Source: a virus. Taken from it: a stretch of DNA of 64,000 bases. Under the pieces are notes generated by a model. That model ran no database searches. It saw only the letters and a program-made list of their open reading frames with translations, and had not been told where the DNA came from. Positions 1,970 through 61,824 of the stretch are shown here, in pieces. The translations under genes and the position numbers were made by a program. The number at the start of each line of letters is the position of its first letter. The first letter of the stretch is position 1. The stretch is from positions 1 to 64,000 of the IMG/VR virus record IMGVR_UViG_3300035698_018280; one strand, given 5' to 3'.

Positions 1970-2653
1970 TTAGACAAATTTTGCGAGGAAGAAAACTTCT
2001 TTTAAACCAGATTTTGCGCCTTCAGCCTCTTTTCTAGCTGAATGAAACCTATATCCACCCATTATTATCTCAAAATCTCCTAATGAAGAAAAATCATCCC
2101 AAATCTCAGGATACTTAGAAGCATCTTTGAAATAGTTAGTATTCTGAGCAAACTCTGGATGCATAATATTGAAAACGCTGGGATGATTGGCGTTTAGTTT
2201 ACCCTGCCTAGGTAAAGAGATAAAAACACCCCTCTTACAAGTTTTTCTAATCTGAGATAAAACCGATTCAGCATCCCACATATGTTCTAATGAATGAGAC
2301 GAGTAAGCAACGTCAAAGCATTCGTGCCCGAATTTATCTCCAAGATCATGAGCGTCAATTGGAAGAACGAGCTTATTATTATTGTCTGAAATATCAATAC
2401 CTATTGCATCATGGCCTCGGTTAATGAAGGACATAACTTCAGAATCATCGCGAGCGCCAATACAGACAATATTTAATACCAGGCCAAACGCATCTGAAAT
2501 ATTAAAAATATCTTCAATTCTCTTAGGTTCAAGAGATTTTGTTATACGAGATTTATTACCAGAATGCTCGCTCTTTTGCGCAGCAAGATAATCTTCATAC
2601 GGTACTTCAAGTCTCTTCATTTTGCTTACGCCTAATTTCTCCAATACGATCAT
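1970..2653 (-). CDS. Class I SAM-dependent methyltransferase (Methyltransf_11 type)
   Basis: A Rossmann methyltransferase. Motif I is altered (NIVCIGARDDSE), followed by GIDIS at the end of strand 2 and DVAYSSHSLEHMWDAES, the usual post-motif of small-molecule methyltransferases. The start is uncertain. The ATG at 2651-2653 gives 227 residues, and an internal ATG at 2618-2620 (MKRLEVPYED) gives 216. Both overlap the end of the split dehydrogenase gene. It is the last gene of the sugar operon. The substrate is probably a sugar or glycan intermediate, inferred from context. Confidence 0.75.
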   Translation of the reverse strand: MIVLEKLGVSKMKRLEVPYEDYLAAQKSEHSGNKSRITKSLEPKRIEDIFNISDAFGLVLNIVCIGARDDSEVMSFINRGHDAIGIDISDNNNKLVLPIDAHDLGDKFGHECFDVAYSSHSLEHMWDAESVLSQIRKTCKRGVFISLPRQGKLNANHPSVFNIMHPEFAQNTNYFKDASKYPEIWDDFSSLGDFEIIMGGYRFHSARKEAEGAKSGLKEVFFLAKFV

Positions 2654-2885
2654 TGGAGTTCAGAACCTCTCGCAGCAAGGCTGGCTCGTACCCTAGATGG
2701 CTGGCGGCCTCTACTAGGGCAGAAACATCTTTTGGAAAGCAGTTATGACTTACAATTCCTGTTCCCTGTTCAATCCAAAACAAATCATCATTCATTGGAT
2801 TATCATCTTTACTTTCAAGATGAAGATTATACACTTTGTCGTTGAATCGTTCTTTTGATATGTTTGTTATTTTCACGGTATTCAT
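2607..2885 (-). CDS. C-terminal split intein fused to C-terminal part of nucleotide-sugar dehydrogenase
   Basis: A 92-residue protein in two parts. Residues 1-48 are the C-terminal half of an intein: VYNLHLES matches block F and GTGIVSHN is block G with penultimate His and final Asn. Residues 49-92 (CFPKDVSALVEAAS...) are the end of a UDP-sugar dehydrogenase. Joined to the N-part at 3603-4754 they rebuild FGGK+CFPKD, the active-site motif of this enzyme family. The intact relative at 13143-13958 reads FGGVCLPKD at this place. The start ATG overlaps the endonuclease stop (ATGA) and has a TAGGAG site. Confidence 0.9.
   Translation of the reverse strand: MNTVKITNISKERFNDKVYNLHLESKDDNPMNDDLFWIEQGTGIVSHNCFPKDVSALVEAASHLGYEPALLREVLNSNDRIGEIRRKQNEET
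2742..2885 (-). other. Split intein, C-terminal fragment (IntC, 48 aa)
   Basis: The segment ends in SHN, with Cys as the first extein residue. It contains a basic N-terminus (MNTVKITNISKERF), which would complement the acidic tail of the N fragment. It is somewhat longer than the roughly 36-residue IntC of DnaE-type split inteins. No endonuclease residues are attached. This fits a naturally split, trans-splicing intein. Confidence 0.88.
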
Positions 2886-3646
2886 ATGCTTACTCCTAAC
2901 TTGATAAGATCTTTTTTGAATAATACTCGAATTTCAATATTCGGATTATGTTGTTTTATAGCAGAGAATTTTGTTTCATCATAAAAATATTCAGCTTTTA
3001 CATCTGCGTAACATTTCCATTTATCTATCCAGAAATCAGGATAGTAGTTTTTGTTTATTCCATTTTTGATATAAGGTATCCGCCCTTTGTGGCATTTGAA
3101 ACTCAGGTTATTTGTGTCTAACCAATTTATAAATGCTAATTCCCATGTTCCTTGTACCTTGTATGTCTCTCCATTTGAATGCTTGTAATCATACCATTTA
3201 CACTGACCTACTCTAACTCCGTCGAACTTTCCATTTGCCCAAGCATCTGCCGTATTCTTGGCTATCCTTTTTCTAAGTTCAGGGTCGTTGCGCATTCTTT
3301 CTTTTCTGGTGTTAGACATTTTCTTTCTAACATCAAGACGTTTCATACCGTTCTTGTTGCCAGCATTTATCTTTCTTTGTTTCGAAGTCTTAGATATTTG
3401 CTTTGCTAACTCAGGGTTTTTCTGCCTCATGATCTTGAGAGATTCAGACATTTTATTTCTATATTCTGGTTGCTTGTTTCTTAAAGATTGCCAGCATCGT
3501 TTGCAGTAATCTTTATCGCAAAGAGGATTCTCTTTCATCTTTTCATGACTGCGCCTGAGTCTGGAGTAGATTACACCACAATCATCACAAGAAAATTCTA
3601 TTTTAGAGTAAGGTTTTATCTTCTCCATCATCGGAGACAGTTGCAT
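2882..3646 (-). CDS. Free-standing homing endonuclease, zinc finger + NUMOD3-like repeats + PD-(D/E)XK/Vsr-like nuclease
   Basis: A 254-residue protein inserted exactly between the two halves of the split intein. The start ATG (3644-3646) has a strong AGAAGGAG site that lies inside the N-intein coding sequence. The N-terminus has a Cys finger (CDDCG, then CDKDYCKRCW). The middle repeats basic motifs (KMSESLK, KQISKTSKQRK, KKMSNTRKERM) like NUMOD3 DNA-binding modules of homing endonucleases. The C-terminus has GTWELAF, YYPDFWI and YADVKAEY, the E...PD...DxK layout of PD-(D/E)XK and Vsr-like nucleases. It probably spreads the intein insertion. The overlap with both flanking genes shows a well-settled arrangement. 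Confidence 0.82.
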   Translation of the reverse strand: MQLSPMMEKIKPYSKIEFSCDDCGVIYSRLRRSHEKMKENPLCDKDYCKRCWQSLRNKQPEYRNKMSESLKIMRQKNPELAKQISKTSKQRKINAGNKNGMKRLDVRKKMSNTRKERMRNDPELRKRIAKNTADAWANGKFDGVRVGQCKWYDYKHSNGETYKVQGTWELAFINWLDTNNLSFKCHKGRIPYIKNGINKNYYPDFWIDKWKCYADVKAEYFYDETKFSAIKQHNPNIEIRVLFKKDLIKLGVSI

Positions 3647-4754
3647 GGTTTTCTCCTTCTGCCGCAAAGTGCTTACCCTTTTTAGTACAGAAAAATTCAT
3701 CTGACTCCTTTATCTCTTTAGCTTGAATTACCTGTATTTCTCCATTTCGCAAAACTGGTATAAAATGTTCAGGAGTACATTTGAACTCTCCAGCGTCAGT
3801 TTTAAACACATAAAGTTCACCGTTGTAGTCTCTACAGGTCACTTCTAATATTTTTTTATCATCTAAATTCATTTCGGAATTTACTGATTCAATTACAGGC
3901 GAAAAGTATATATTTTGAGATTTCAAATTTTCTTGTATTTCATACAGCTTATCAATACGATAATTCCCATAAGATGCGGGAATATCGCCTACCACGTTTA
4001 CTAGAGCATCCCCAGTAACACACTTGCCCCCAAACGGCTTTTCGCTCTCAGAAAAGACAGCCGTATGCATAGGATTAATGCGGGGATCAAGAAGCCACGC
4101 CTCTCTCAGCTTGTAATAATCAACACCTAGCTTCTTGCAAATCTGGTCAATTTCATAACAGAACGTAACCTTCATTGCATAAAAAGTGTTTTCTACATAC
4201 TTTGAAAGCTCAGCAGTCAAAGTATCGGTTTGATGGTATACCTTTGTCGGTCCAACTACCTTGATAAAGAATTCGACACATGCCTCGGTGTCAATGCCGT
4301 CTCCGCCGAATGCGAACCAAGGCGTTTCCTTGACATCGGTATGAAATTTGTATTCAGTCCAATACTTTGATTCGCCGCAATACTCAGGAGAAAATACAAT
4401 TCGTTTGCCAGTCTCCTCCTTGAGCTTATTAGTAGTCCCAGGCTCGACTGTGGACTTGATAAGGAATAATGGCGCATCAATGGATCGCAAAGCCTCTTCA
4501 ACCAATGACGTATCGCAGAAGCCCTTCTCGTCCTTCGGTGTTGGAAGAGATATAACAACTAGATCGCATCCGTTTGCTTCAGCATAATTGTTAGTTTGAA
4601 TTCTTGATAAACCTTCTGCATTAGTAATTTTGCTATCTGCTGATGAGCCAGAAAATTTAGTATCTACAATGACCAAATTATAATGATCTCCGAAGAACTC
4701 ATCCATTGCCTTCCCAACGTAACCGTGACCGATAATAGCTATTTTCTTACTCAT
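3603..4754 (-). CDS. N-terminal part of nucleotide-sugar dehydrogenase fused to N-terminal split intein
   Basis: Residues 1-244 are a UDP-glucose/UDP-ManNAc dehydrogenase-type enzyme: IAIIGHGYVGKAM (NAD-binding), VVISLPTP, IKSTVEPGTT, FSPEYCGE and AELSKYVENTFYAMKVTF. The frame then runs from FGGK straight into CVTGDALVNVVG, an intein block A with Cys1, and later GEFKCTPEHF, block B with TxxH. It ends in an acidic tail. The catalytic cysteine and C-terminus are encoded separately at 2607-2885. With both exteins joined the enzyme is 288 residues, close to the 271-residue relative at 13143. Neither half can be active alone, which is inferred from the missing catalytic Cys. Confidence 0.92.
   Translation of the reverse strand: MSKKIAIIGHGYVGKAMDEFFGDHYNLVIVDTKFSGSSADSKITNAEGLSRIQTNNYAEANGCDLVVISLPTPKDEKGFCDTSLVEEALRSIDAPLFLIKSTVEPGTTNKLKEETGKRIVFSPEYCGESKYWTEYKFHTDVKETPWFAFGGDGIDTEACVEFFIKVVGPTKVYHQTDTLTAELSKYVENTFYAMKVTFCYEIDQICKKLGVDYYKLREAWLLDPRINPMHTAVFSESEKPFGGKCVTGDALVNVVGDIPASYGNYRIDKLYEIQENLKSQNIYFSPVIESVNSEMNLDDKKILEVTCRDYNGELYVFKTDAGEFKCTPEHFIPVLRNGEIQVIQAKEIKESDEFFCTKKGKHFAAEGENHATVSDDGEDKTLL
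3606..4022 (-). other. Split intein, N-terminal fragment (IntN, 139 aa)
   Basis: The fragment begins at Cys245 of the fused protein (codon 4020-4022). Block A is CVTGDALVNV, and block B has the TPEH form of TxxH. It ends in EGENHATVSDDGEDKTLL and a stop, with no block F or G, so it can only splice in trans with the fragment at 2742-2885. Confidence 0.9.
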
Positions 4755-4763
4755 TGTATTTTC

Positions 4764-5294
4764 CTAAATAAGTTCCATTATACCAAACTTGTATTTTTTC
4801 CTATTAGAAACATTTATTATTTTACCTGAGAACCATTTATTTTCTACGGCTTCATTGAACGCTTTCATGCATCCTTCGTAATGTAAATCATCTACTAAAA
4901 TTACGCCATTGCTAGACAGTATTCCCCTGTCTCTAATAAGCCTATATTCTTCTAATCTAAATTTGTAACTTTTCGATCCATCTTGAAATATCAATCCATA
5001 TGAATCTTTACACTCTTTTAGAAAATCTATTGTTGAAGCTGTTATGCATTGGTTATTTTCAGTCGGTTCAGCCTTGAGAAATTTATCAGATATATCTACA
5101 TGGGTGCTGCGTACCTGCATATTTTTACAGATTTCGCAAAACAAGCCTTTTCTATATCCTAGTTCTAAAAATGAATTTGTATCCACAAGGTAGCTATAGA
5201 CCAATCGGACATAACTGTTCTTCTCAAGTAGCGGATCTGCCTTAGTCGGAAAATCTCGTATTAGTTGTTCTATATTTTCAGGTATATTAACCAT
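4764..5294 (-). CDS. Class I SAM methyltransferase-like (Methyltransf_24 type)
   Basis: A 176-residue protein with FLELGYRKGLF (motif I), THVDIS, LIFQDGSKSY and GVILVDDLHYEG, the pattern of Methyltransf_24/CmcI-type enzymes. It is rather short and the substrate is unknown. The ATG overlaps the end of the gene at 5287-5895 and has GAGG nine bases upstream, so the two are translated as a coupled pair. Confidence 0.65.
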   Translation of the reverse strand: MVNIPENIEQLIRDFPTKADPLLEKNSYVRLVYSYLVDTNSFLELGYRKGLFCEICKNMQVRSTHVDISDKFLKAEPTENNQCITASTIDFLKECKDSYGLIFQDGSKSYKFRLEEYRLIRDRGILSSNGVILVDDLHYEGCMKAFNEAVENKWFSGKIINVSNRKKYKFGIMELI

Positions 5295-5895
5295 TCTTAG
5301 TAGCCTCTACATAAAGGGAGCATTCTTTATATCTATCAAAATCGCAGTTTCTAAATTCTTTAGAACACTTATTGTATGACATGATAGAGATCTTACTAAA
5401 TCCTGCTTTGCGAAGATAATGGGTCATTACTTCTTCGTTGAAAGCAACGACATGACCGCCTTCTAATCGTCTAGTTTTTGTTTCGTCATTTACGTTATAA
5501 CTAAAAAACCAAGATGATAAATAACTCAAAGGTATATTGGGTAGGAAAGACATTTTTGTAGGATTTCGTTTCGACTTGAGATACTTGAAATCTTTATTGA
5601 CATAAGCTTTTATAGCTATATCTATATCAGGAACAACTAGACGGACTCTCTTGCCAGGAGCAAGCGCTCTGTGAATCTCTTTGAAAACAAAAGGGATTGT
5701 CTCTGGAAAGATATGTTCCATAGTATGAGAAGAGTATATTGCATCAACAGAATTATCTTCAAAAGGTAAGGGCTCCTTCATAATGTTCATAACTATATCG
5801 CAACCTCCCCTAACATCAATTATGGTCCAATCATCAAAGTTCTTACCGTGATTTTTTCTTCCTTTTTGACCGCCAATGTTTATCTTTACTGCCAT
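5287..5895 (-). CDS. Predicted SAM-dependent methyltransferase (COG4627-like)
   Basis: A 202-residue protein of the COG4627 style: KINIGGQKGRKNH at the N-terminus, then an Asp-rich strand, DNSVDAIYSSHTMEH, and FKEIHRALAPGKRVRLVVPD. The motif GGHVVAFNEE near residue 150 matches the usual lid region of these enzymes. It overlaps both neighbours by a few bases. It probably modifies a sugar in the surrounding glycan pathway, by context only. Confidence 0.75.
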   Translation of the reverse strand: MAVKINIGGQKGRKNHGKNFDDWTIIDVRGGCDIVMNIMKEPLPFEDNSVDAIYSSHTMEHIFPETIPFVFKEIHRALAPGKRVRLVVPDIDIAIKAYVNKDFKYLKSKRNPTKMSFLPNIPLSYLSSWFFSYNVNDETKTRRLEGGHVVAFNEEVMTHYLRKAGFSKISIMSYNKCSKEFRNCDFDRYKECSLYVEATKNG

Positions 5896-12453: not shown

Positions 12454-13146
12454 ATGTTGAAAATAAAAATAAACTACGATGACCAAATAATACCAATGAA
12501 TGTTCTATCTAAAAAACAATCTAAATCCGACAAATCTAGCAAAAGACTGGCGGATCAGCTATCTAACTGGCATAATAAGAAGAAAGCATTTTATGAGCGA
12601 AGCGAACTTGAGTATTCTAAACAATATTTAAGCAAAGGAGATACTGTCATAGATTGCGGATCAAATTTGGGTAATCACTCTTTATTTTGGTCCGTTATAT
12701 GCCAGTGTAATATACATGCTATTGAACCTGAGAAAACAATATTTGATATCATGCATAGCAACTTAGAAATGAATGAATGTCAGTTCAAATCATATAACGA
12801 AGCAGCAGGAGACGGTCTGGGTACATTCGATATGCTTATCAATAAGAGATCCTATGGGCAAACAAGGATCGTTCCTTCAGATGACGGGGCTATAAAGACA
12901 GTAAGATTAGACGACATCATATCAAACAATGTAAAACTAATCAAGATTGACACCGAAGGACATGAAGAGCAGGTCATAAAAGGTAGTTTGAATCTCATAA
13001 AACAGAACAAGCCATTTCTGTGGATAGAAATGCATGAAGGATGCGGTTATGGAGTTGATTATCTTATTAATTACATAAAGAGTCTTGGATATAAAGACCC
13101 TCACGAATTGGCTGAAAATAAGTTCTGGTTTTCCTCAAAGAGTTAA
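12454..13146 (+). CDS. FkbM family methyltransferase (only plus-strand gene)
   Basis: A 230-residue canonical FkbM methyltransferase: VIDCGSNLGNHSLFW (motif I), IHAIEPE, VRLDDII and LIKIDTEGHEEQVIKG, the family signature. It is the only gene on the plus strand and faces the minus-strand genes on its right, meeting the stop of 13143-13958 with a four-base overlap. No Shine-Dalgarno is seen before the ATG, and a TATATATTA box lies 5-13 bases upstream. Leaderless or weak translation is possible, or a later start at Met15. Confidence 0.85.
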   Translation: MLKIKINYDDQIIPMNVLSKKQSKSDKSSKRLADQLSNWHNKKKAFYERSELEYSKQYLSKGDTVIDCGSNLGNHSLFWSVICQCNIHAIEPEKTIFDIMHSNLEMNECQFKSYNEAAGDGLGTFDMLINKRSYGQTRIVPSDDGAIKTVRLDDIISNNVKLIKIDTEGHEEQVIKGSLNLIKQNKPFLWIEMHEGCGYGVDYLINYIKSLGYKDPHELAENKFWFSSKS

Positions 13147-13958
13147 TCAGATCTTGAGTCTCCCTTGAGCCTCATTCCTTCAAAGACAGTAGTTTTGTAC
13201 TTCCCATTCTCTGTCAATATATTGTCAAAAAACTCAACGCCAGTATTTAGTTTCCTAGACAAGTAGGCCATAGCTTTTGTGTCCTTGGGCAAGCATACTC
13301 CTCCAAACCCTCTAATATCTGGACCGCAATCTAAATAGAAGTCATTGATATTGTCTCTTTTTACAAGCGCATTTTTAATCTTGCTATAATCTGCGCCCAA
13401 TGATTCCGCTACTTCATAGAAGCTGTTCGCAAGAATGACCAAAGATGCATTGTGTATATTGTTGAAATACTTGCATAGTTCGGCCTCGGTTGGCGAGACC
13501 CTTTCGAACTGTCTTGGTATTGATCCGTGAGATTCTTCAACTGCATTGTACGCATTTTCTGACAGAGCGCCTATAACACAGACATCATGATTGTTGATGA
13601 AATCCTCGTAAGCGCATCGTTCTCTAAGGAACTCAGGAACAAAGCATAGTCTGTCTGAAGAATGTTTATTAGCAAGTCTCTCTGTAGTTCCTGGAGATAC
13701 TGTTGACTTGACAGAGATGATTCCATCATACGACAAATCAAATAGCTCTTGCACAACTTTTTCTACTATGGATACATCGCATTCTCCATCTTCATTAGGC
13801 GGAGTAGGTACGCATATGTAGCAAATATCTGTTTGAAGAATGTCATTGATGTCCGTATTGAATCTAGGATCATGGATATAGACTTTATGACCAATCTCTT
13901 CAAAAGCCTGCCTGACGGCGCTGCCGACTACGCCAATTCCCATAATTCCTATTTTCAT
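13143..13958 (-). CDS. Nucleotide-sugar dehydrogenase (UDP-glucose dehydrogenase family), uninterrupted
   Basis: A 271-residue enzyme with IGIMGIGVVGSAV (NAD fold), ICVPTPP, SVKSTVSPGTTERL, FVPEFLRE, AELCKYFNNIHNAS and the active-site FGGVCLPKDTKAM with catalytic Cys. It lacks the C-terminal UDP-binding domain of full-length (about 400-residue) members. It is a relative of the split-intein-interrupted gene at 3603-4754/2607-2885, but has no intein at the same cysteine. The ATG has a GAGGA site. Confidence 0.85.
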   Translation of the reverse strand: MKIGIMGIGVVGSAVRQAFEEIGHKVYIHDPRFNTDINDILQTDICYICVPTPPNEDGECDVSIVEKVVQELFDLSYDGIISVKSTVSPGTTERLANKHSSDRLCFVPEFLRERCAYEDFINNHDVCVIGALSENAYNAVEESHGSIPRQFERVSPTEAELCKYFNNIHNASLVILANSFYEVAESLGADYSKIKNALVKRDNINDFYLDCGPDIRGFGGVCLPKDTKAMAYLSRKLNTGVEFFDNILTENGKYKTTVFEGMRLKGDSRSD

Positions 13959-47756: not shown

Positions 47757-49799
47757 TTATTCATCGCCAAACATATCGTCTGACTCCAATCCTTTTCGAC
47801 GAGATTTCCTTCTGTCTTCCCGTAGTTCACCAAACTCTTTTACAACATCTTCAGACTTACGTTTTTTCGTTCTACCAGTCTTCATATCTTTCTCTCTAAA
47901 GAAGCCAGCAATCGCCAGGCATTCTGCACTTTTTGCATCAACAAACTTTGGATCAGTATTGAAAGCAAAATCTCTCATATCCGAATACGGCTGCTTGGCC
48001 TCAATCTCTGTAGCCGCTCGGTGGCTCATACCCTTACAACGAAGCGAAGGTCTGATCTGAGACTTATGAACACCGTTTGACGGATCTTTGCGGACAACAA
48101 TTTCGTAGTCATAACTACACTTGTTGATACTACGAGGAAGAACGTCCATATTCATCTTGCCGCAATCTTTTTCAAACTGCACAATCTTTTCATACTTATC
48201 AGCTTTTTTACTTCTCAATAAAACATTCATGTATGATGTCATAAACTCTTCAGGATAATGAGTTTTCAGATAAGCAGTTGTATACGATAAATAAGCATAA
48301 CAAGCGCTATGAGATTTATTAAATCCATAATCAGCAAAGGGAGTAATAAACTTATCCCAATACTGTTGCGCAACTTCTTCAGGAACATTGTTGACTTTAC
48401 AGCCGTCAATAAACTGAATTTGATACTTATTCATGAGTTCCGGTATTTTCTTACCGACTGCTTTGATCATAGCATAACCATCAGTAATAGAAAAACCAGC
48501 AAGAGAATTACAGACTTGCATCAACTGTTCTTGATAACAAAGAACTCCGTATGTAGGTTCTAGATATTTTCTAACATAAGGCTCAATAGACTCATGAAAA
48601 TATCCAACAGGTTCTTCGCCTTTCTTACGAGAAGAATATAATGGAATTGATTTCATAGGCCCTGGACGATACAAAGCTACTCCTACAATGACATCTTCAA
48701 AACGATTGACTCTAAGTTGTCGCATCGTTTGTTGCATACCTGGATTTTCGCATTGGAAAACGCCATTGAGTTTGCCGCTTCGATATAGATTTAGTGTATC
48801 CTTATCGTCAAGAGGCATATTCTCTACATCAATTGTAATTCCATAATTTTCTTTAATAAGTTCTACTGTCCGACGAATAACTGCCAATGTTGATATGGCA
48901 AGAATATCAAATTTGATAAGACCCATAAACTCAAGGTCTTCATATGCATATTGCGTAGCAAGTTCATAATGAGTACCCTTACCTTCTTCGTCTGCAACTT
49001 TCTTTCGGCTTAGCCTCAGAGGAGCAATAGACTGAAGAGGTACGCTAGAAATAACAATTCCGGCAGCATGAACGCTAAAGTTAGATAGTAATCCCTGAAT
49101 ATTGGGCGAATGCTCAAGAAGCTCAGGATATTTATCCACATATCTTTTAAAGTCATCGCAATATTTTGCCCCATCTGCAACAGTCCTGATAACGACATCA
49201 TTACCCTCCTCATCGGTGGCCCTGATGTTTGCCCCGACCTGTTTTGGAAGAGATTTTGCTATCTCGTCCCCTCTATCCTGCGTTTCCTTGCGCCAACGTT
49301 CCCTGTTCTCATTCCTAACAGTCTTGCTCTCGTGAAGAGCCATAGTAGGTGAAAATACTTTATCAGGATCCAGGGCTCTAAACCCTTGGCGAATATAAGA
49401 CTTAAGCTTCAACGACTGATAAGTACCGATATTACCAACATGGTCTCTACCATACTTGTCAATAATGTAAGTATAAATTTCATCGCGAAACTCATCATCA
49501 AAATCAGAATCAATATCAGGAAAGCCCTTACGAGCAAAACAACGACGAATAGGAAGAAATTCTTCGTCCTCTGGTCTTTTCTCAGTTATACCCAATAGAT
49601 AAGCTGTATGAGAATTGATCTTATTAGTCTTACCGATAAGACTCTTCTCTTTAGCGCTCTTCCACATATTATAAAACTTAAGGAGAATAGGCTCTCCATC
49701 AAGATTATCGGTTTGAGCCATAAAGTCCAATTCTTCTCGAACTTTATCAGTGGCTTTACTTCCAATAGTTTCAAGAATCTCTTGTTTGATCTTGTTCAT
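47757..49799 (-). CDS. dnaE: DNA polymerase III alpha, C-terminal part (catalytic palm, fingers, HhH)
   Basis: A 680-residue protein. GFPDIDSDFDDEFRDEI (residues 93-108) carries the two catalytic Asp, and LIKFDILAIS (Asp298) the third. LYRPGPMKSIPLY, LEPTYGVLCYQEQLM and FNKSHSACYAYLSYTTAYL are finger-domain signatures. KGMSHRAATEI is a helix-hairpin-helix. The chain stops there, lacking the OB and tau-binding domains. Residues about 56-92 (NSHTAYLLGITEKR) resemble the GRGSxxGS palm segment but with the GS part lost. That segment is kept in the partner gene. Confidence 0.92.
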   Translation of the reverse strand: MNKIKQEILETIGSKATDKVREELDFMAQTDNLDGEPILLKFYNMWKSAKEKSLIGKTNKINSHTAYLLGITEKRPEDEEFLPIRRCFARKGFPDIDSDFDDEFRDEIYTYIIDKYGRDHVGNIGTYQSLKLKSYIRQGFRALDPDKVFSPTMALHESKTVRNENRERWRKETQDRGDEIAKSLPKQVGANIRATDEEGNDVVIRTVADGAKYCDDFKRYVDKYPELLEHSPNIQGLLSNFSVHAAGIVISSVPLQSIAPLRLSRKKVADEEGKGTHYELATQYAYEDLEFMGLIKFDILAISTLAVIRRTVELIKENYGITIDVENMPLDDKDTLNLYRSGKLNGVFQCENPGMQQTMRQLRVNRFEDVIVGVALYRPGPMKSIPLYSSRKKGEEPVGYFHESIEPYVRKYLEPTYGVLCYQEQLMQVCNSLAGFSITDGYAMIKAVGKKIPELMNKYQIQFIDGCKVNNVPEEVAQQYWDKFITPFADYGFNKSHSACYAYLSYTTAYLKTHYPEEFMTSYMNVLLRSKKADKYEKIVQFEKDCGKMNMDVLPRSINKCSYDYEIVVRKDPSNGVHKSQIRPSLRCKGMSHRAATEIEAKQPYSDMRDFAFNTDPKFVDAKSAECLAIAGFFREKDMKTGRTKKRKSEDVVKEFGELREDRRKSRRKGLESDDMFGDE

Positions 49800-50137
49800 T
49801 ATATACCTGCGCTAAAATGGGCTGTTACGCCCAGGCTAGAATATTTCTTCACTATTTTTAGGTTCAGCCTATTTTGCAATAGCTCTCCTTGTCGTTCTAT
49901 CTCTTTCATTTCGGCCCAATACCCTTCGCTATTATCATCATCCACCAACATCGTTCCAGGTTTAGCCTGCCAATAGCAATATACACTAATTTCTGTATGA
50001 TATGTCCTACTTGAAAAATGCAAGCCCCACGAGTTGATATCTATTTCAAAACGAGGTTCATCAACTTCCTGGCTAACTTCATCCGATGTTTGACGAACCA
50101 TTTTTAAGATATTTTGAATTACGCTAGAAGACAACAT
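49799..50137 (-). CDS. Hypothetical protein inserted between polymerase halves
   Basis: A 112-residue protein with TAGG as a site. Strand-rich middle: RFEIDINSWGLHFSS, TEISVYCYWQAKPG. It sits between the two polymerase-alpha genes with overlapping ends. Not recognised as an intein or endonuclease. Confidence 0.65.
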   Translation of the reverse strand: MLSSSVIQNILKMVRQTSDEVSQEVDEPRFEIDINSWGLHFSSRTYHTEISVYCYWQAKPGTMLVDDDNSEGYWAEMKEIERQGELLQNRLNLKIVKKYSSLGVTAHFSAGI

Positions 50138-50140
50138 GAG

Positions 50141-51535
50141 TTAATACCTATCTACTCCGCCCATATCGTCTTCAAACTCTCGATCCAGAGCGGCGGTTTC
50201 AATAAACAACTCTTCTGCAGATTTGGCTTCATCTAAACCAAAATCGCTCTCTTGCAGGAATCTCTTGTCATCGAAGCCCAAGAATCTTTCCCAAAGAAGT
50301 CCATACTCCAATGGATCTGGCCCATATGCAATACCAAGGCAACGTAAAAGCACGCTGCCGTATCCTGAACCCCGGCCGCATCCGGTCAAGATGTTTCGCC
50401 TTCGAGCTTCCATCATGTAGTCTCGAACAATAAGTAGATACGTTGCAAAGTCATATTTATTATTATCCCATGCAACTTTGATATCATCCATTTCGAGTTT
50501 CAATCGAGCTATATGTTCAGGACTCTGCGCCCATCCTAATTTCTGAAGACCGTCGTTTGCCAACTGCCCCATGTAATCATGAGGAGATTTAAAACTTTTA
50601 GGTATATCGAATCTAGGCAGTCTCATACCGCTTGTCATATTTGTAAGTATATCGGTAGTGTCAACCTTGTCGGCAACAAGCATGGTATTCGTCAGAAGCT
50701 CAGGATGCGTTCCAAATGTCTTAGACATTTCAGCAGCCGACTTTAGATAGAACTCACTGTAAGGAAACTTGATGCGGCTAGGATCGCTGAAGCAACGAGA
50801 AGTTGACATTGCCATTAGAAGCTCATGAGATTTGCCCTGGCATTTTTCGCAATAGTGACAATCATTAGTAGCATGAACGCATACATCCATGTCTTTACCA
50901 AGCTTGAGAATATCCGGGATAATCATGCCTTCAGCATCTATACCATGATACATAGCCTCAAGATGAAAATCTTTATCGAATATGTCTTTAAAAAGGGCAA
51001 CGGCCTTCTTGGCCTGATCGTAACGGTCATGCAACAAGTTAGCATTGATAACGCTACTTAGACAAGCAGAAGTGCAAATAAGCCCTTCGCTATATTTACC
51101 AAGAAGATCAAAATCTATACGAGGATCAAAGAAATAACCTTCGGTCCAGCTATGCTCAGAAAGACGACAAAGGTTCTGGTATCCTGTCCAGTTTTTAGCA
51201 ATCAAAACAATATGTCTATTGCCCTTTCGCTTGTCTGGTTGTTCTTGTACTGAATGAGCGTGCCTGTCTTTGGACAAATAAAACTCGCAGCCTACGATGG
51301 GCTTGCATGTTGGAATCTCGTTTCCATGCTCATCTTTAGCAGGCTTTAGGCATTCCTGCATAAACTTGATAGCACCAGCCATGTTTCCATGATCAGTCAT
51401 GGCAAGGGCCTTGAATCCTTTTTTGCGAGCAGCAAGAGGAAACTGTCCTATCTTATTTAGCCCATCAAAAGATGAGTATTCAGTATGGTTATGAAGGTGA
51501 CAAAAATCGGCGTTAGTGATACGAAGTTTTCCCAT
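50141..51535 (-). CDS. dnaE: DNA polymerase III alpha, N-terminal part (PHP domain and first palm segment)
   Basis: A 464-residue protein. CHLHNHTEYSSFDG (His13, His15), MTDHGN, IVGCEFYL (Glu84) and ATNDCHYCEKC give the PHP metal set, apparently intact. The palm begins TGCGRGSGYGSVLLRCLGI (GRGS 387-390), then YGLLWERFL. Where the catalytic PDxDxDF should follow it reads LQESDFGLDE (residues 428-436), so the catalytic Asp pair is lost here. Those Asp residues are in the C-part at 47757-49799. GGGAG precedes the ATG. Confidence 0.92.
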   Translation of the reverse strand: MGKLRITNADFCHLHNHTEYSSFDGLNKIGQFPLAARKKGFKALAMTDHGNMAGAIKFMQECLKPAKDEHGNEIPTCKPIVGCEFYLSKDRHAHSVQEQPDKRKGNRHIVLIAKNWTGYQNLCRLSEHSWTEGYFFDPRIDFDLLGKYSEGLICTSACLSSVINANLLHDRYDQAKKAVALFKDIFDKDFHLEAMYHGIDAEGMIIPDILKLGKDMDVCVHATNDCHYCEKCQGKSHELLMAMSTSRCFSDPSRIKFPYSEFYLKSAAEMSKTFGTHPELLTNTMLVADKVDTTDILTNMTSGMRLPRFDIPKSFKSPHDYMGQLANDGLQKLGWAQSPEHIARLKLEMDDIKVAWDNNKYDFATYLLIVRDYMMEARRRNILTGCGRGSGYGSVLLRCLGIAYGPDPLEYGLLWERFLGFDDKRFLQESDFGLDEAKSAEELFIETAALDREFEDDMGGVDRY

Positions 51536-58719: not shown

Positions 58720-61700
58720 CTAGTCAATATCAATGTGATCTGCTATTGATGAGCCGCTATGAGCATCATTCTTTCCGATAAGCGGAACGTCAGGCTGCCC
58801 ATCGCCGTCTACATCAGTATTAGCAAAAACGCAGTTCTGTTTTGCCCATGCCCTCATCTCAGAAAGTTCTGTTTTACGAATTTCAGATAAGGGTTTCATA
58901 TTGCTTACAGAATCAAGTATATCTTTTGTTCTTAGCTTTCGTTTTTTAGATTTGAAAGCAATAAACATTCCTGCATCTATAGCTTTTTCAATTTCTGCGC
59001 CGCTATAACCGTTAGTCTTCTCAGAAAGTTTTTCAATATCAAACTTTTTAGGATCTAATTTCTGTTTCTTCAATAGAATATCAAAGATTTGCTTGCGTCC
59101 TTCAAGACCAGGTAAATCAATCCAAAACACTTCATCAAATCTTCCTGCTCGCATAAATTCGGGCGGAATATCTAACACGTTATTGGCAGTAGTAACTACA
59201 AAAACAGGTTTTGTTTTTTCTTGCAGCCATGTCAGGAATGTAGAGATTACTCGCTTTGTCGTACCAGAATCCCCCGAGCCTGCGCCAACGCCGCCCGACA
59301 ACCCTTTCTCAATCTCATCGCACCAAAGAACGCAGTTGTGACAAAGAATTTCATTAGCAACAAAGTTATGGTTTCCTTCGCATGCCAGATCGTAAGCCCA
59401 CTTAGTTCCGACCTCTTCAATCTTTGTAACTTTCATACCAACAAGATCGCAACATATAAGATCAACAATAGAATCTTTAGTTACCTGGTTATTTTGAGTT
59501 CCATTTTTGTTACTAAGCGTCTCGGCAATAGCCCATGCTTTTATAAACGGTACTATAGAACCTTTTTCATAGTGAGTCATTGACTGAGAAGCAATAGGGA
59601 AATCATTTTTAGTAAGACCGTAGAAGATTCTCTCTTTCAAGAGAGAATTTCCAAGCTTATACCCAATGCTGCGATTTTCTTTACCAAATTTATTGCTGAC
59701 TATATAGGCAAGATCAGTCGAAAGACTATCTACTTTTAGGTCCATAGCAATAGCCAATGCCTCGATATCGTCGGCATTCTCGATAGATATCTCCATGCCC
59801 CTAGCAGGCTCCTTATAAGATATTACGCCAAAAATATGAATCGCTTTTCTAATCCGCATTCTATATACGGGATCAGTTGATTGTAATTTAAATATAATCT
59901 TCGATTTGTTATCATTCTCAATAATTTCGCCAGAAGTATCAAACATACCGCTCAAAAAATTGCGAACGTACTCGTCTTCTTGCGCAAATAATTCATCTCT
60001 AGCATGATTGAGAATATCAGCTACAATTTTATTACTTACCTTGATATTATAACCGCATGATGTTTTTTCAAGGGCTGGTTCAACCCCGAACATGTCAGCC
60101 ATTGCATTGACAATAAGATACGACTTATCCAGTGTGCCCGCCTTGAAATGAACCTCTCCTTTAGAGATATCAATCCAGCCACATCCGTGAATAGCACCAA
60201 CAAGATAATAGACTAAACAGCGGTTGAATCCGCTCAACAAAGTTACATCATGATATTCGCCTTCGAATTTACCAGCAATTTTATTACAACCGTTTTTATC
60301 TCCTGGTTTAAAAGTGTCATAAGGAATAGAGATAGCTTCTTTCCAGTTTGTCTCTCGCCCTCGACGCATAAAATACTTAGGCGTCATAACTAAATCGCCC
60401 TTTTCAATATCTTTAGCTTCAACCCATTTGAGATCGCCATCTCGATTAACCATAATCTTATGATCTTTAGTAACTTCAATGGAAGTCGTTGCTGTTTTAA
60501 TTCGGATCATCGCTTTTTTCTTGGCGTGTCTAATAACTGTTCGAACCCGAGTCGGTTCCATCTTCTTTTGTTCTTCATTGAATGCATAAATAAATAGCTC
60601 TTCTTTACTAAACAGCCTCTTATCATCTGCAAGATCAGAAATTCTGTGTTGTACGCCATCTATATCATAGATAATTGAATCACCGGATACGCATGGAGCA
60701 ATAGTCTCAGCCAACTTGATAGCAGCACGGGCTGTTTTTTCAGACTCGCCAACCAGCGAATCAAACATACGGCCAAAATCGAGACGAAGCAGAGGCATAC
60801 CGTAATCCTTAGCAATTGCTTTTGCCGTTAGACTCTTTCCTCCGCCAGGCACACCAAGCAGCATGACTCCTTTAGGCATTTTCAAACCGTATTCCTGCGC
60901 CTCATGAGAAAAGGCCAGTTTGCGATCATGGAGCCAACCTATCATATTGTCCAAACCGCCGACATCCGCAAGAGAAACATTTGGATCTACATATTCAAGG
61001 ATGTCTGTCTTGCGAATTATCGATCTTTTTTCCTTCATCAATATTTCTAAATCAAACGGATTATGACCAAGCTGGTTAGCCATAACCATTGATTTGAAAA
61101 ATGCGGCTTGCGCTTCTGTGAGAGTTAGTCCCTTTACCGAATTGACCAGGTCTTCTCGATTTTCTTCTACATATTTTATTACATCAGGACAATGAGGAAA
61201 GGCGTTTTTATTGTCCCCAATAAGCGAAACAGCTTCATCAAGAATTTCATTAACCTCGTATTCATTCGGATATGGAAAATCAAGTGCAGCCATATCTTTG
61301 TCGAGAGACGCTGTGCTTGTGAAAGAAGGCCCTGTTAGTATGACGCTAGCAGCCTTAGACTCAGACGAAAGGTACTTCAAACGCCGCTGGATGGCAGGTG
61401 CAGGCGGTTTCAAATAACGATAGAAATCCAACAGGACATACAAATTGCCGTTGCTCGGTTTAGCATTAGTCGAAGAAGATTCTGCCTTGTTCTTATTTTT
61501 TCTCTTGTTGATTTGAAATTTTTCAATTTGATCTATAACAAAATTGAGTGTAGTTTCAGGATTAGTGAAATCAATTTTATTGTTGCCGTCTACGTTGACA
61601 GGCTGACGACCATCGAGATGCCGTAAACCTTTATAACAATCCCAAACATATCCAACGTAATTGCGAGCTTCACAAAGATTTTCAACGTGAGCCAGGAATC

Positions 61701-61824
61701 TCTTCTCTTCATTTGTAGAAACAAAGATCAGAGGTTGGCGACTTTTGATAAGTGCCAGTAAACCATTATTGAACTCAGGTGTTGCGCATAATGAAAATAA
61801 CTTCTCTGCTTCGATATTTGACAC
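58720..61824 (-). CDS. AAA+ ATPase (Ycf46-like) interrupted by an intein
   Basis: A 1034-residue precursor starting with GTG (GGAG six bases upstream). N-domain: FNNGLLALIKSRQPLIFVST resembles cyanobacterial/plastid Ycf46. ADVGGLDNMIGWL and LLGVPGGGKSLTA (Walker A, 324-331) follow. The intein begins at Cys378 and ends at Asn830. The extein resumes CVLWCDEIEKG (Walker B, DE 836-837), then VVTTANNVLDIPPEFMRAGR (second region of homology). The spliced product would be 581 residues. Function unknown; a protein- or DNA-remodelling ATPase. Confidence 0.9.
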   Translation of the reverse strand: MSNIEAEKLFSLCATPEFNNGLLALIKSRQPLIFVSTNEEKRFLAHVENLCEARNYVGYVWDCYKGLRHLDGRQPVNVDGNNKIDFTNPETTLNFVIDQIEKFQINKRKNKNKAESSSTNAKPSNGNLYVLLDFYRYLKPPAPAIQRRLKYLSSESKAASVILTGPSFTSTASLDKDMAALDFPYPNEYEVNEILDEAVSLIGDNKNAFPHCPDVIKYVEENREDLVNSVKGLTLTEAQAAFFKSMVMANQLGHNPFDLEILMKEKRSIIRKTDILEYVDPNVSLADVGGLDNMIGWLHDRKLAFSHEAQEYGLKMPKGVMLLGVPGGGKSLTAKAIAKDYGMPLLRLDFGRMFDSLVGESEKTARAAIKLAETIAPCVSGDSIIYDIDGVQHRISDLADDKRLFSKEELFIYAFNEEQKKMEPTRVRTVIRHAKKKAMIRIKTATTSIEVTKDHKIMVNRDGDLKWVEAKDIEKGDLVMTPKYFMRRGRETNWKEAISIPYDTFKPGDKNGCNKIAGKFEGEYHDVTLLSGFNRCLVYYLVGAIHGCGWIDISKGEVHFKAGTLDKSYLIVNAMADMFGVEPALEKTSCGYNIKVSNKIVADILNHARDELFAQEDEYVRNFLSGMFDTSGEIIENDNKSKIIFKLQSTDPVYRMRIRKAIHIFGVISYKEPARGMEISIENADDIEALAIAMDLKVDSLSTDLAYIVSNKFGKENRSIGYKLGNSLLKERIFYGLTKNDFPIASQSMTHYEKGSIVPFIKAWAIAETLSNKNGTQNNQVTKDSIVDLICCDLVGMKVTKIEEVGTKWAYDLACEGNHNFVANEILCHNCVLWCDEIEKGLSGGVGAGSGDSGTTKRVISTFLTWLQEKTKPVFVVTTANNVLDIPPEFMRAGRFDEVFWIDLPGLEGRKQIFDILLKKQKLDPKKFDIEKLSEKTNGYSGAEIEKAIDAGMFIAFKSKKRKLRTKDILDSVSNMKPLSEIRKTELSEMRAWAKQNCVFANTDVDGDGQPDVPLIGKNDAHSGSSIADHIDID
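59335..60693 (-). other. Intein (453 aa) with degenerate LAGLIDADG endonuclease
   Basis: It starts CVSGDSIIYD (block A), with IEVTKDHKIMV as block B. It ends WAYDLACEGNHNFVAN (block F) and EILCHN (block G: His-Asn), followed by Cys. The inserted endonuclease has LVGAIHGCG in place of LAGLIDADG and LSGMFDTSG in place of the second motif. The catalytic Asp is Cys in one and Ser in the other. Splicing residues appear intact, so it should splice but not home. Confidence 0.9.

Follow-up and report, generated by a model that had tools for sequence, protein, structure and literature searches.

A homing endonuclease lineage of phages that appears to spare its target dehydrogenase gene in two ways, by a split intein or by gene-end capture

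Introduction

Fractured genes, in which the halves of a split intein are encoded apart with an endonuclease gene between them, were reportedly described by Dassa and colleagues in 2009 from phage-like environmental sequences, the host genes listed being those of DNA synthesis and repair enzymes. The original ones are said to carry an endonuclease of the Vsr-like EDxHD family. Bases 1–64,000 of the 163,887-base-pair IMG/VR virus record IMGVR_UViG_3300035698_018280 (hereafter the window) contain one UDP-glucose-dehydrogenase-type gene in three short overlapping open reading frames (ORFs) on the minus strand, at 4754–2607. With good confidence from sequence comparison, this locus can be read as a fractured gene with a class-1 split intein directly before the catalytic Cys and an endonuclease cistron between the intein halves. 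It resembles the fractured genes of Dassa in gene order, phage-like environmental origin, a split point between intein blocks B and F, and separate cistrons. It differs from what is reported of them in its host gene, which encodes a nucleotide-sugar dehydrogenase, and in its nuclease, a T7-endonuclease-I-like PD-(D/E)xK protein with a zinc finger rather than a Vsr-like one. Together with its relatives, the endonuclease appears to form one homing lineage that spares its target gene in two ways, by a split intein or by capture of the gene end.

Inteins are known from UDP-glucose 6-dehydrogenase, where the allele is named 'udp' (PMC4071816). These continuous inteins share with the present ones the enzyme and, in the genomes scanned here, the exact position of insertion, which precedes the catalytic Cys of CFPKD; they are single-chain, mostly 350–490 amino acids (aa) long with some of about 180–200 aa, and read 'VYSLEV...HTFVT', whereas the phage inteins are split, shorter (about 150–190 aa in total), and read 'VYNLEL...DDLFW'. 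Because continuous 'udp' inteins are widespread at the same residue, the gene is an already known intein host. An earlier sequence-only reading of the window had suggested that the host gene may be new; this falls for the gene as such and stands for its split, endonuclease-interrupted form, which was unreported in the literature searched (most subscription journals and Dassa et al. 2009 lie outside it). In that literature, 'split intein' and 'UDP-glucose dehydrogenase' were not found together.

Free-standing phage endonucleases are also known to drive intronless and collaborative homing, for instance T4 Seg/Mob, psbA, and T7-like polymerase (PMC2988022, PMC10448857). The present system shares with these an endonuclease that stands free next to its target gene, co-converted flanks, and a target at the site where a splicing element inserts, but the known cases involve group I introns, while here the element is a split intein and the endonuclease lineage occurs both inside and outside it. 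In fungal mitochondria, gene ends have been captured by mobile endonuclease ORFs, as in Allomyces atp6 and Glomus atp6/cox2 (PMC3630166); there, as here, a foreign C-terminal coding segment and an endonuclease were inserted and the native C-terminus was left behind as a relic. The present case differs in occurring in phages, in its nuclease fold, as far as is known, and in the alternative split-intein strategy at the same target. The fractured-gene type is known; what appears new, within the literature searched, is the class of enzyme, the family of nuclease, and the coexistence with a free form that captures gene ends.

Anatomy of the fractured dehydrogenase locus

The trio encodes, in minus-strand order, an N-extein fused to the N-terminal intein half (IntN; 383 aa, 4754–3603), an endonuclease (254 aa), and the C-terminal intein half (IntC) fused to the C-extein (92 aa, 2885–2607). 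These three overlapping genes had been recognized in the sequence-only reading, and their coordinates were confirmed and their interpretation was supported. The features are as follows.

4023–4754, minus strand: N-extein (244 aa) from a short dehydrogenase of the UDP-glucose/GDP-mannose type, with C-terminal KPFGGK (PF03721 and PF00984; NDP-sugDHase TIGR03026, E 5e-31)
3606–4022, minus strand: IntN, 139 aa, starting with C1 VTGD (CVTGD) and containing block B CTPEHF; stop codon at 3603–3605 (PF14890, TIGR01445, family-conserved C1 and TxxH)
3653–3659, minus strand: Shine–Dalgarno sequence GAAGGAG of the endonuclease gene (sequence)
2882–3646, minus strand: putative free-standing homing endonuclease gene, 254 aa, with a four-Cys zinc finger, a helical middle, and a C-terminal PD-(D/E)xK nuclease (invariant columns; PDB 1m0d; AlphaFold2 model)
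2742–2885, minus strand: IntC, 48 aa, with C-terminal GIVSHN and its own AGGAG at 2893–2897 (family alignment)
2610–2741, minus strand: C-extein, 44 aa, whose first residue is the catalytic and +1 Cys (CFPKD); stop codon at 2607–2609 (PF00984 positions 59–93)
13143–13958, minus strand: intact intein-free dehydrogenase paralogue, 271 aa, with GGVCLPKD (same genome)

The N gene and the endonuclease gene overlap by 44 nucleotides (nt), and the endonuclease and IntC genes by 4 nt (ATGA). The middle ORF is listed from an ATG at 3700, while the Shine–Dalgarno sequence favors the ATG at 3646, which is the likely start and gives the 254-aa protein. The predicted splice junction is GGK/CFPKD (the slash marks the junction), and the spliced product would have the 288 residues proposed earlier, in agreement with the computed sum of a 244-aa N-extein and a 44-aa C-extein. 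No Rfam RNA element was found in window positions 2000–5500. The trio is set within a series of genes for methyltransferases and glycosyltransferases.

The catalytic Cys of the UDP-glucose dehydrogenase family sits in GGxCxPKD, so the +1 residue of the intein is the catalytic residue of the enzyme. The N half matches PF00984 (E 4e-15, positions 2–68) and PF03721 (E 5e-10), and the C half matches PF00984 at its remaining end (E 9e-6); the halves thus complement each other within a single Pfam family. The NAD-binding and central domains and the GGxCxPKD motif of the UDP-glucose dehydrogenase family are all present, and the motif was aligned with UDP-glucose dehydrogenases of solved structure. 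PF03720, the UDP-binding domain at the C-terminus, was found neither in the fractured gene, nor in the paralogue, nor anywhere else in the record, which makes it uncertain what these short phage dehydrogenases act on and even which reaction they catalyze. The paralogue at 13143–13958 has no related endonuclease beside it.

Evidence for a split intein

IntN matches PF14890 (E 5e-5) and, from residue 1, TIGR01445 (E 7e-5). When IntN and IntC were joined into one string, solely for the family search, PF14890 was matched over positions 27–143 of 155 with both parts covered (E 3e-7), and the corresponding joined string of a relative, L047, exceeds the PF14890 gathering score. The window has the nucleophile C1, TxxH in block B, and SHN with a +1 Cys, as in class-1 split inteins; blocks A and B in IntN and blocks F and G in IntC, named in the sequence-only reading, were all recovered (the CVTGD start, CTPEHF, and SHN/C).

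The strongest evidence for an intein is comparative and comes from a set of 25 loci, composed of the window and 24 further IMG/VR loci, in which members of two dehydrogenase families have both intein halves, paired, at the homologous Cys. Among them, the splice residues are kept almost throughout: C1 and HN/C in 25/25 and TxxH in 24/25 (L054 has Q). The ratio of nonsynonymous to synonymous substitution rates (dN/dS) was below 1 for IntN, IntC, and the endonuclease in all pairs computed, with 0.15–0.21 for the endonuclease and 0.05–0.17 for the N-extein where computable. L007 and L014 keep both intein halves with the endonuclease reduced to a remnant of 60–77 aa, and in L334 (1804–3537) a split intein interrupts a dehydrogenase of the HPRDN type, its halves having no endonuclease between them. 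Because these three loci keep the halves with a decayed or missing endonuclease, the intein would be retained for its own sake, as one would expect of a target gene that has come to need splicing. An IntC match like that of L334 was also found by an IntC scan in L335–L337.

Some results count against this interpretation. IntC on its own gives a weak TIGR01443 match (E 0.04) that falls under the intein cut-offs, the joined halves of the window reach 30.8 bits and so stay below the Pfam gathering score of 35.8, and one comparison of IntC, which is short, gave a dN/dS of 0.71. The locus might also be a wreck, with a dead intein and an inactivated dehydrogenase whose work is done by the intact paralogue in the same genome (29% identical to the fractured dehydrogenase over residues 63–250). 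This is quite improbable, as the window retains every splice residue along with the catalytic motif of the dehydrogenase, the homologous trios of the comparative set likewise keep the splice residues, and the N-extein and endonuclease show the low dN/dS values given above. Even less probable is a non-covalent two-subunit enzyme with vestigial intein residues, as in the genes-in-pieces ribonucleotide reductase; PMC10448857 cites this phage case, in which the gene stayed functional without splicing although a homing endonuclease had interrupted it. Here, the break falls inside the catalytic motif, and C1, TxxH, HN, and the +1 Cys are conserved across the 25 loci, including L334, L007, and L014. 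The fractured-gene reading is supported by what was found together: a conserved enzyme gene with complementary exteins, the blocks of a split intein, an endonuclease gene standing free between its halves, purifying selection, and the occurrence of the same layout in many phages.

Distribution across viruses, bacteria, and archaea

The same three-gene order occurs in many independent metagenome contigs. An assembly error, which the sequence-only reading had named as a danger to its claim, is ruled out by this recurrence, and since 25 loci carry paired halves at the homologous Cys, the arrangement in the window is not an accident of assembly.

Of the 25 stretches returned by a scan of 2.9 million viral contigs for HNCFPKD-coding DNA, about 16 proved to be split trios or pieces of them, five held a continuous intein at this site (L003, L004, L010, L008, and L027), and four were chance. 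Chance matches to the pattern HNC[FL]PKD (L009, L016, L018, L026, L033, and L035) were dropped upon translation. The endonuclease profile, used as a query, added further loci. Some of these belong to a second family of dehydrogenases, in which the same kind of split intein sits at the homologous Cys (GGxC/HPRDN), namely L044, L047, L052, L054, L057, L058, and L055, the last being ended by the contig edge. A first viral scan with the N-half protein as sole query gave no match, and tblastn against a phage collection gave only intein-free dehydrogenases of less than 35% identity.

One genome per bacterial and archaeal species was scanned with the same DNA pattern. Among the 120 matches listed, at least 80 are continuous inteins at the exact site, and no recognizable split intein was found at the site. 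Within the data scanned, only phages appear to have the split form.

Immediately upstream of the fractured dehydrogenase gene, L019 (6913–7680) and L036 (5578–6072) each have another ORF that resembles an endonuclease and contains GKKHSEE/NUMOD3-like repeats; this may possibly represent a second homing endonuclease at the same gene.

The endonuclease family

In an alignment of 18 sequences, four Cys residues of the N-terminal region are invariant together with E169, P203-D204, D215, and K217 (D215-x-K217). The family profile matched T7 endonuclease I in the PDB (1m0d; E 1.4e-6), aligned over the catalytic region, and in Pfam the matches were to Phage_endo_I and DUF7487, with PF05367 found in 8/18 members (best E 2.6e-9). 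The AlphaFold2 model of the endonuclease has a predicted local distance difference test (pLDDT) score of 86.9, and Foldseek with the whole model gave no match below E 0.001. By its conserved residues and profile matches, the endonuclease is classed as a zinc-finger/PD-(D/E)xK protein akin to T7 endonuclease I. Membership in the Vsr-like EDxHD family (I-Bth0305I) was considered and rejected: the invariants are E, PD, and D-x-K, the PDB match is to T7 endonuclease I and not to I-Bth0305I, and no Vsr Pfam match was obtained, so the protein apparently lies outside that family.

All close family members in the tree (39/39) lie in or beside a dehydrogenase gene, while distant relatives in a 735-kilobase phage (two records) stand by no dehydrogenase gene. 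The tree holds 17 endonucleases split at FPKD, seven split at HPRD, and 15 free ones, intermixed, and all groups together require a minimum of five changes. Since the free-standing L062 nests with a split clade, at least one switch between the free and split states is likely; the root of the tree is too weak to order the two states.

The free-standing form and footprints of transfer

The same endonuclease family is also found immediately downstream of intact, intein-free dehydrogenase genes. Control alleles came from a scan whose query was limited to the gene segment upstream of the site, near duplicates being removed, and a motif was scored as altered if the Gly-Gly or the Pro of GGxCFP was changed. 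The motif is altered in 15/16 alleles with the endonuclease vs. 12/51 without it (Fisher p 6e-7, a test that ignores kinship), and no independent pair contradicts this association in either of two trees. Human UGDH has GGSCFQKD at this position. Alternative residues in the motif are probably tolerated by the enzyme. A clade that is free of both intein and endonuclease (L144, L146, L149, L152, L159, L160, and L163) has the motif GGSCFVKD/GGSCFCKD and could consist of former carriers or of selected resistant alleles.

Direct footprints come from sister alleles. L078, with the endonuclease, and L125, without it, are 96% identical over the 270 nt tested upstream and 100% identical from −240 to −60; the identity drops about 28 nt before the Cys codon and is 55–62% down to the stop codon, after which L078 has the endonuclease and then a flank again identical to L125. 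The last codons of the L078 endonuclease (ISKKPKG-stop) are the old end of an L125-type gene, with 96% identity over about 107 nt spanning the stop. Such relics of old gene ends, fused to or behind the endonuclease, are also present in L062 (KNRDWEEMKGRAVI-stop), L069 (AVSKK), and L073 and L074 (SEKPN-stop), and breaks of the same kind occur in L066/L118 and L073/L167. From the breakpoints, the relics, and the restored flank, it follows that a foreign, altered gene 3' end together with the endonuclease replaced the resident 3' end, next to the codon of the split intein. Taking all 16 carriers together, identity falls past the site only modestly more than in non-carriers (p 0.03), a modest difference being expected if most transfers are old. 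What the data show is thus the anatomy of the locus, its conserved residues, purifying selection, past replacement events at one target, and a family-wide association with that target.

Other results speak against a general link between the endonuclease and the altered motif. Correction for kinship weakened the association to 6.1:0 independent pairs (p about 0.03) on a quick tree and left it not significant on a careful one (4.2:0, p about 0.125); L150 has a free-standing endonuclease and yet an intact GG and Pro; 12 endonuclease-free alleles are altered; and sharp direct co-conversion footprints are limited to a few sister pairs. The free-standing endonucleases might be ordinary downstream genes unrelated to the intein site, with the altered GGxCFPKD a lineage effect, for which the altered alleles among the 51 endonuclease-free ones and the non-significant sign test on the careful tree would speak. 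This explanation is unlikely given the recombination break close upstream of the motif in L078/L125, L066/L118, and L073/L167, the continuity that resumes 3' of the endonuclease, the relic gene ends behind it, the presence of the same family in a split intein at this very codon, and the zero independent pairs in the opposite direction.

Proposed mechanism

In the proposed mechanism, the dehydrogenase halves would be made separately from coupled cistrons, and IntN and IntC would associate and trans-splice to leave GGK/CFPKD. The endonuclease would recognize and cut the intein-free DNA of the catalytic motif, at a site presumed to lie there, in a co-infecting phage, and repair would copy the whole IntN–endonuclease–IntC block into the cut allele. 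Occupied alleles would be immune because their site is interrupted. In the free-standing form, the endonuclease would carry along an altered 3' gene end of foreign origin, which restores the reading frame and apparently could not be cut. Taken as a whole, these steps match a homing cycle in which two devices would keep the interrupted gene working. A wider model is put forward tentatively, at somewhat less than even confidence: one lineage at the catalytic-Cys codon uses both trans-splicing and gene-end capture with a resistant 3' end and has switched between them, and fractured genes would then arise when a free-standing, pre-adapted endonuclease enters an endonuclease-less intein, a form of 'collaborative homing' for inteins.

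Other interrupted genes in the window

An AAA+ ATPase gene (58720–61824, minus strand) has a continuous intein of about 450 aa between Walker A and Walker B (PF14890, E 9e-21), with the junctions AETIAP/CVSGDS and LCHN/CVLWCDEIEK. A phrog_405 DNA polymerase gene (47757–51535, minus strand) is divided into two ORFs, 50141–51535 and 47757–49799, with a 112-aa ORF in between. The polymerase is interrupted immediately ahead of its PDIDSDF catalytic stretch, and no intein motifs were seen at the break.

Significance

The roughly 25 natural and mutually divergent split inteins, which leave a catalytic Cys at the junction, could serve as orthogonal tools, and the endonuclease family is one with a predictable target. 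How split inteins arise is an open question. One target in one set of phages is found here empty, with a continuous intein, with a split intein whose endonuclease is intact, decayed, or missing, and flanked by the endonuclease without an intein; because all these states occur in one searchable phage set, the order of events and the idea of a pre-adapted endonuclease become testable.

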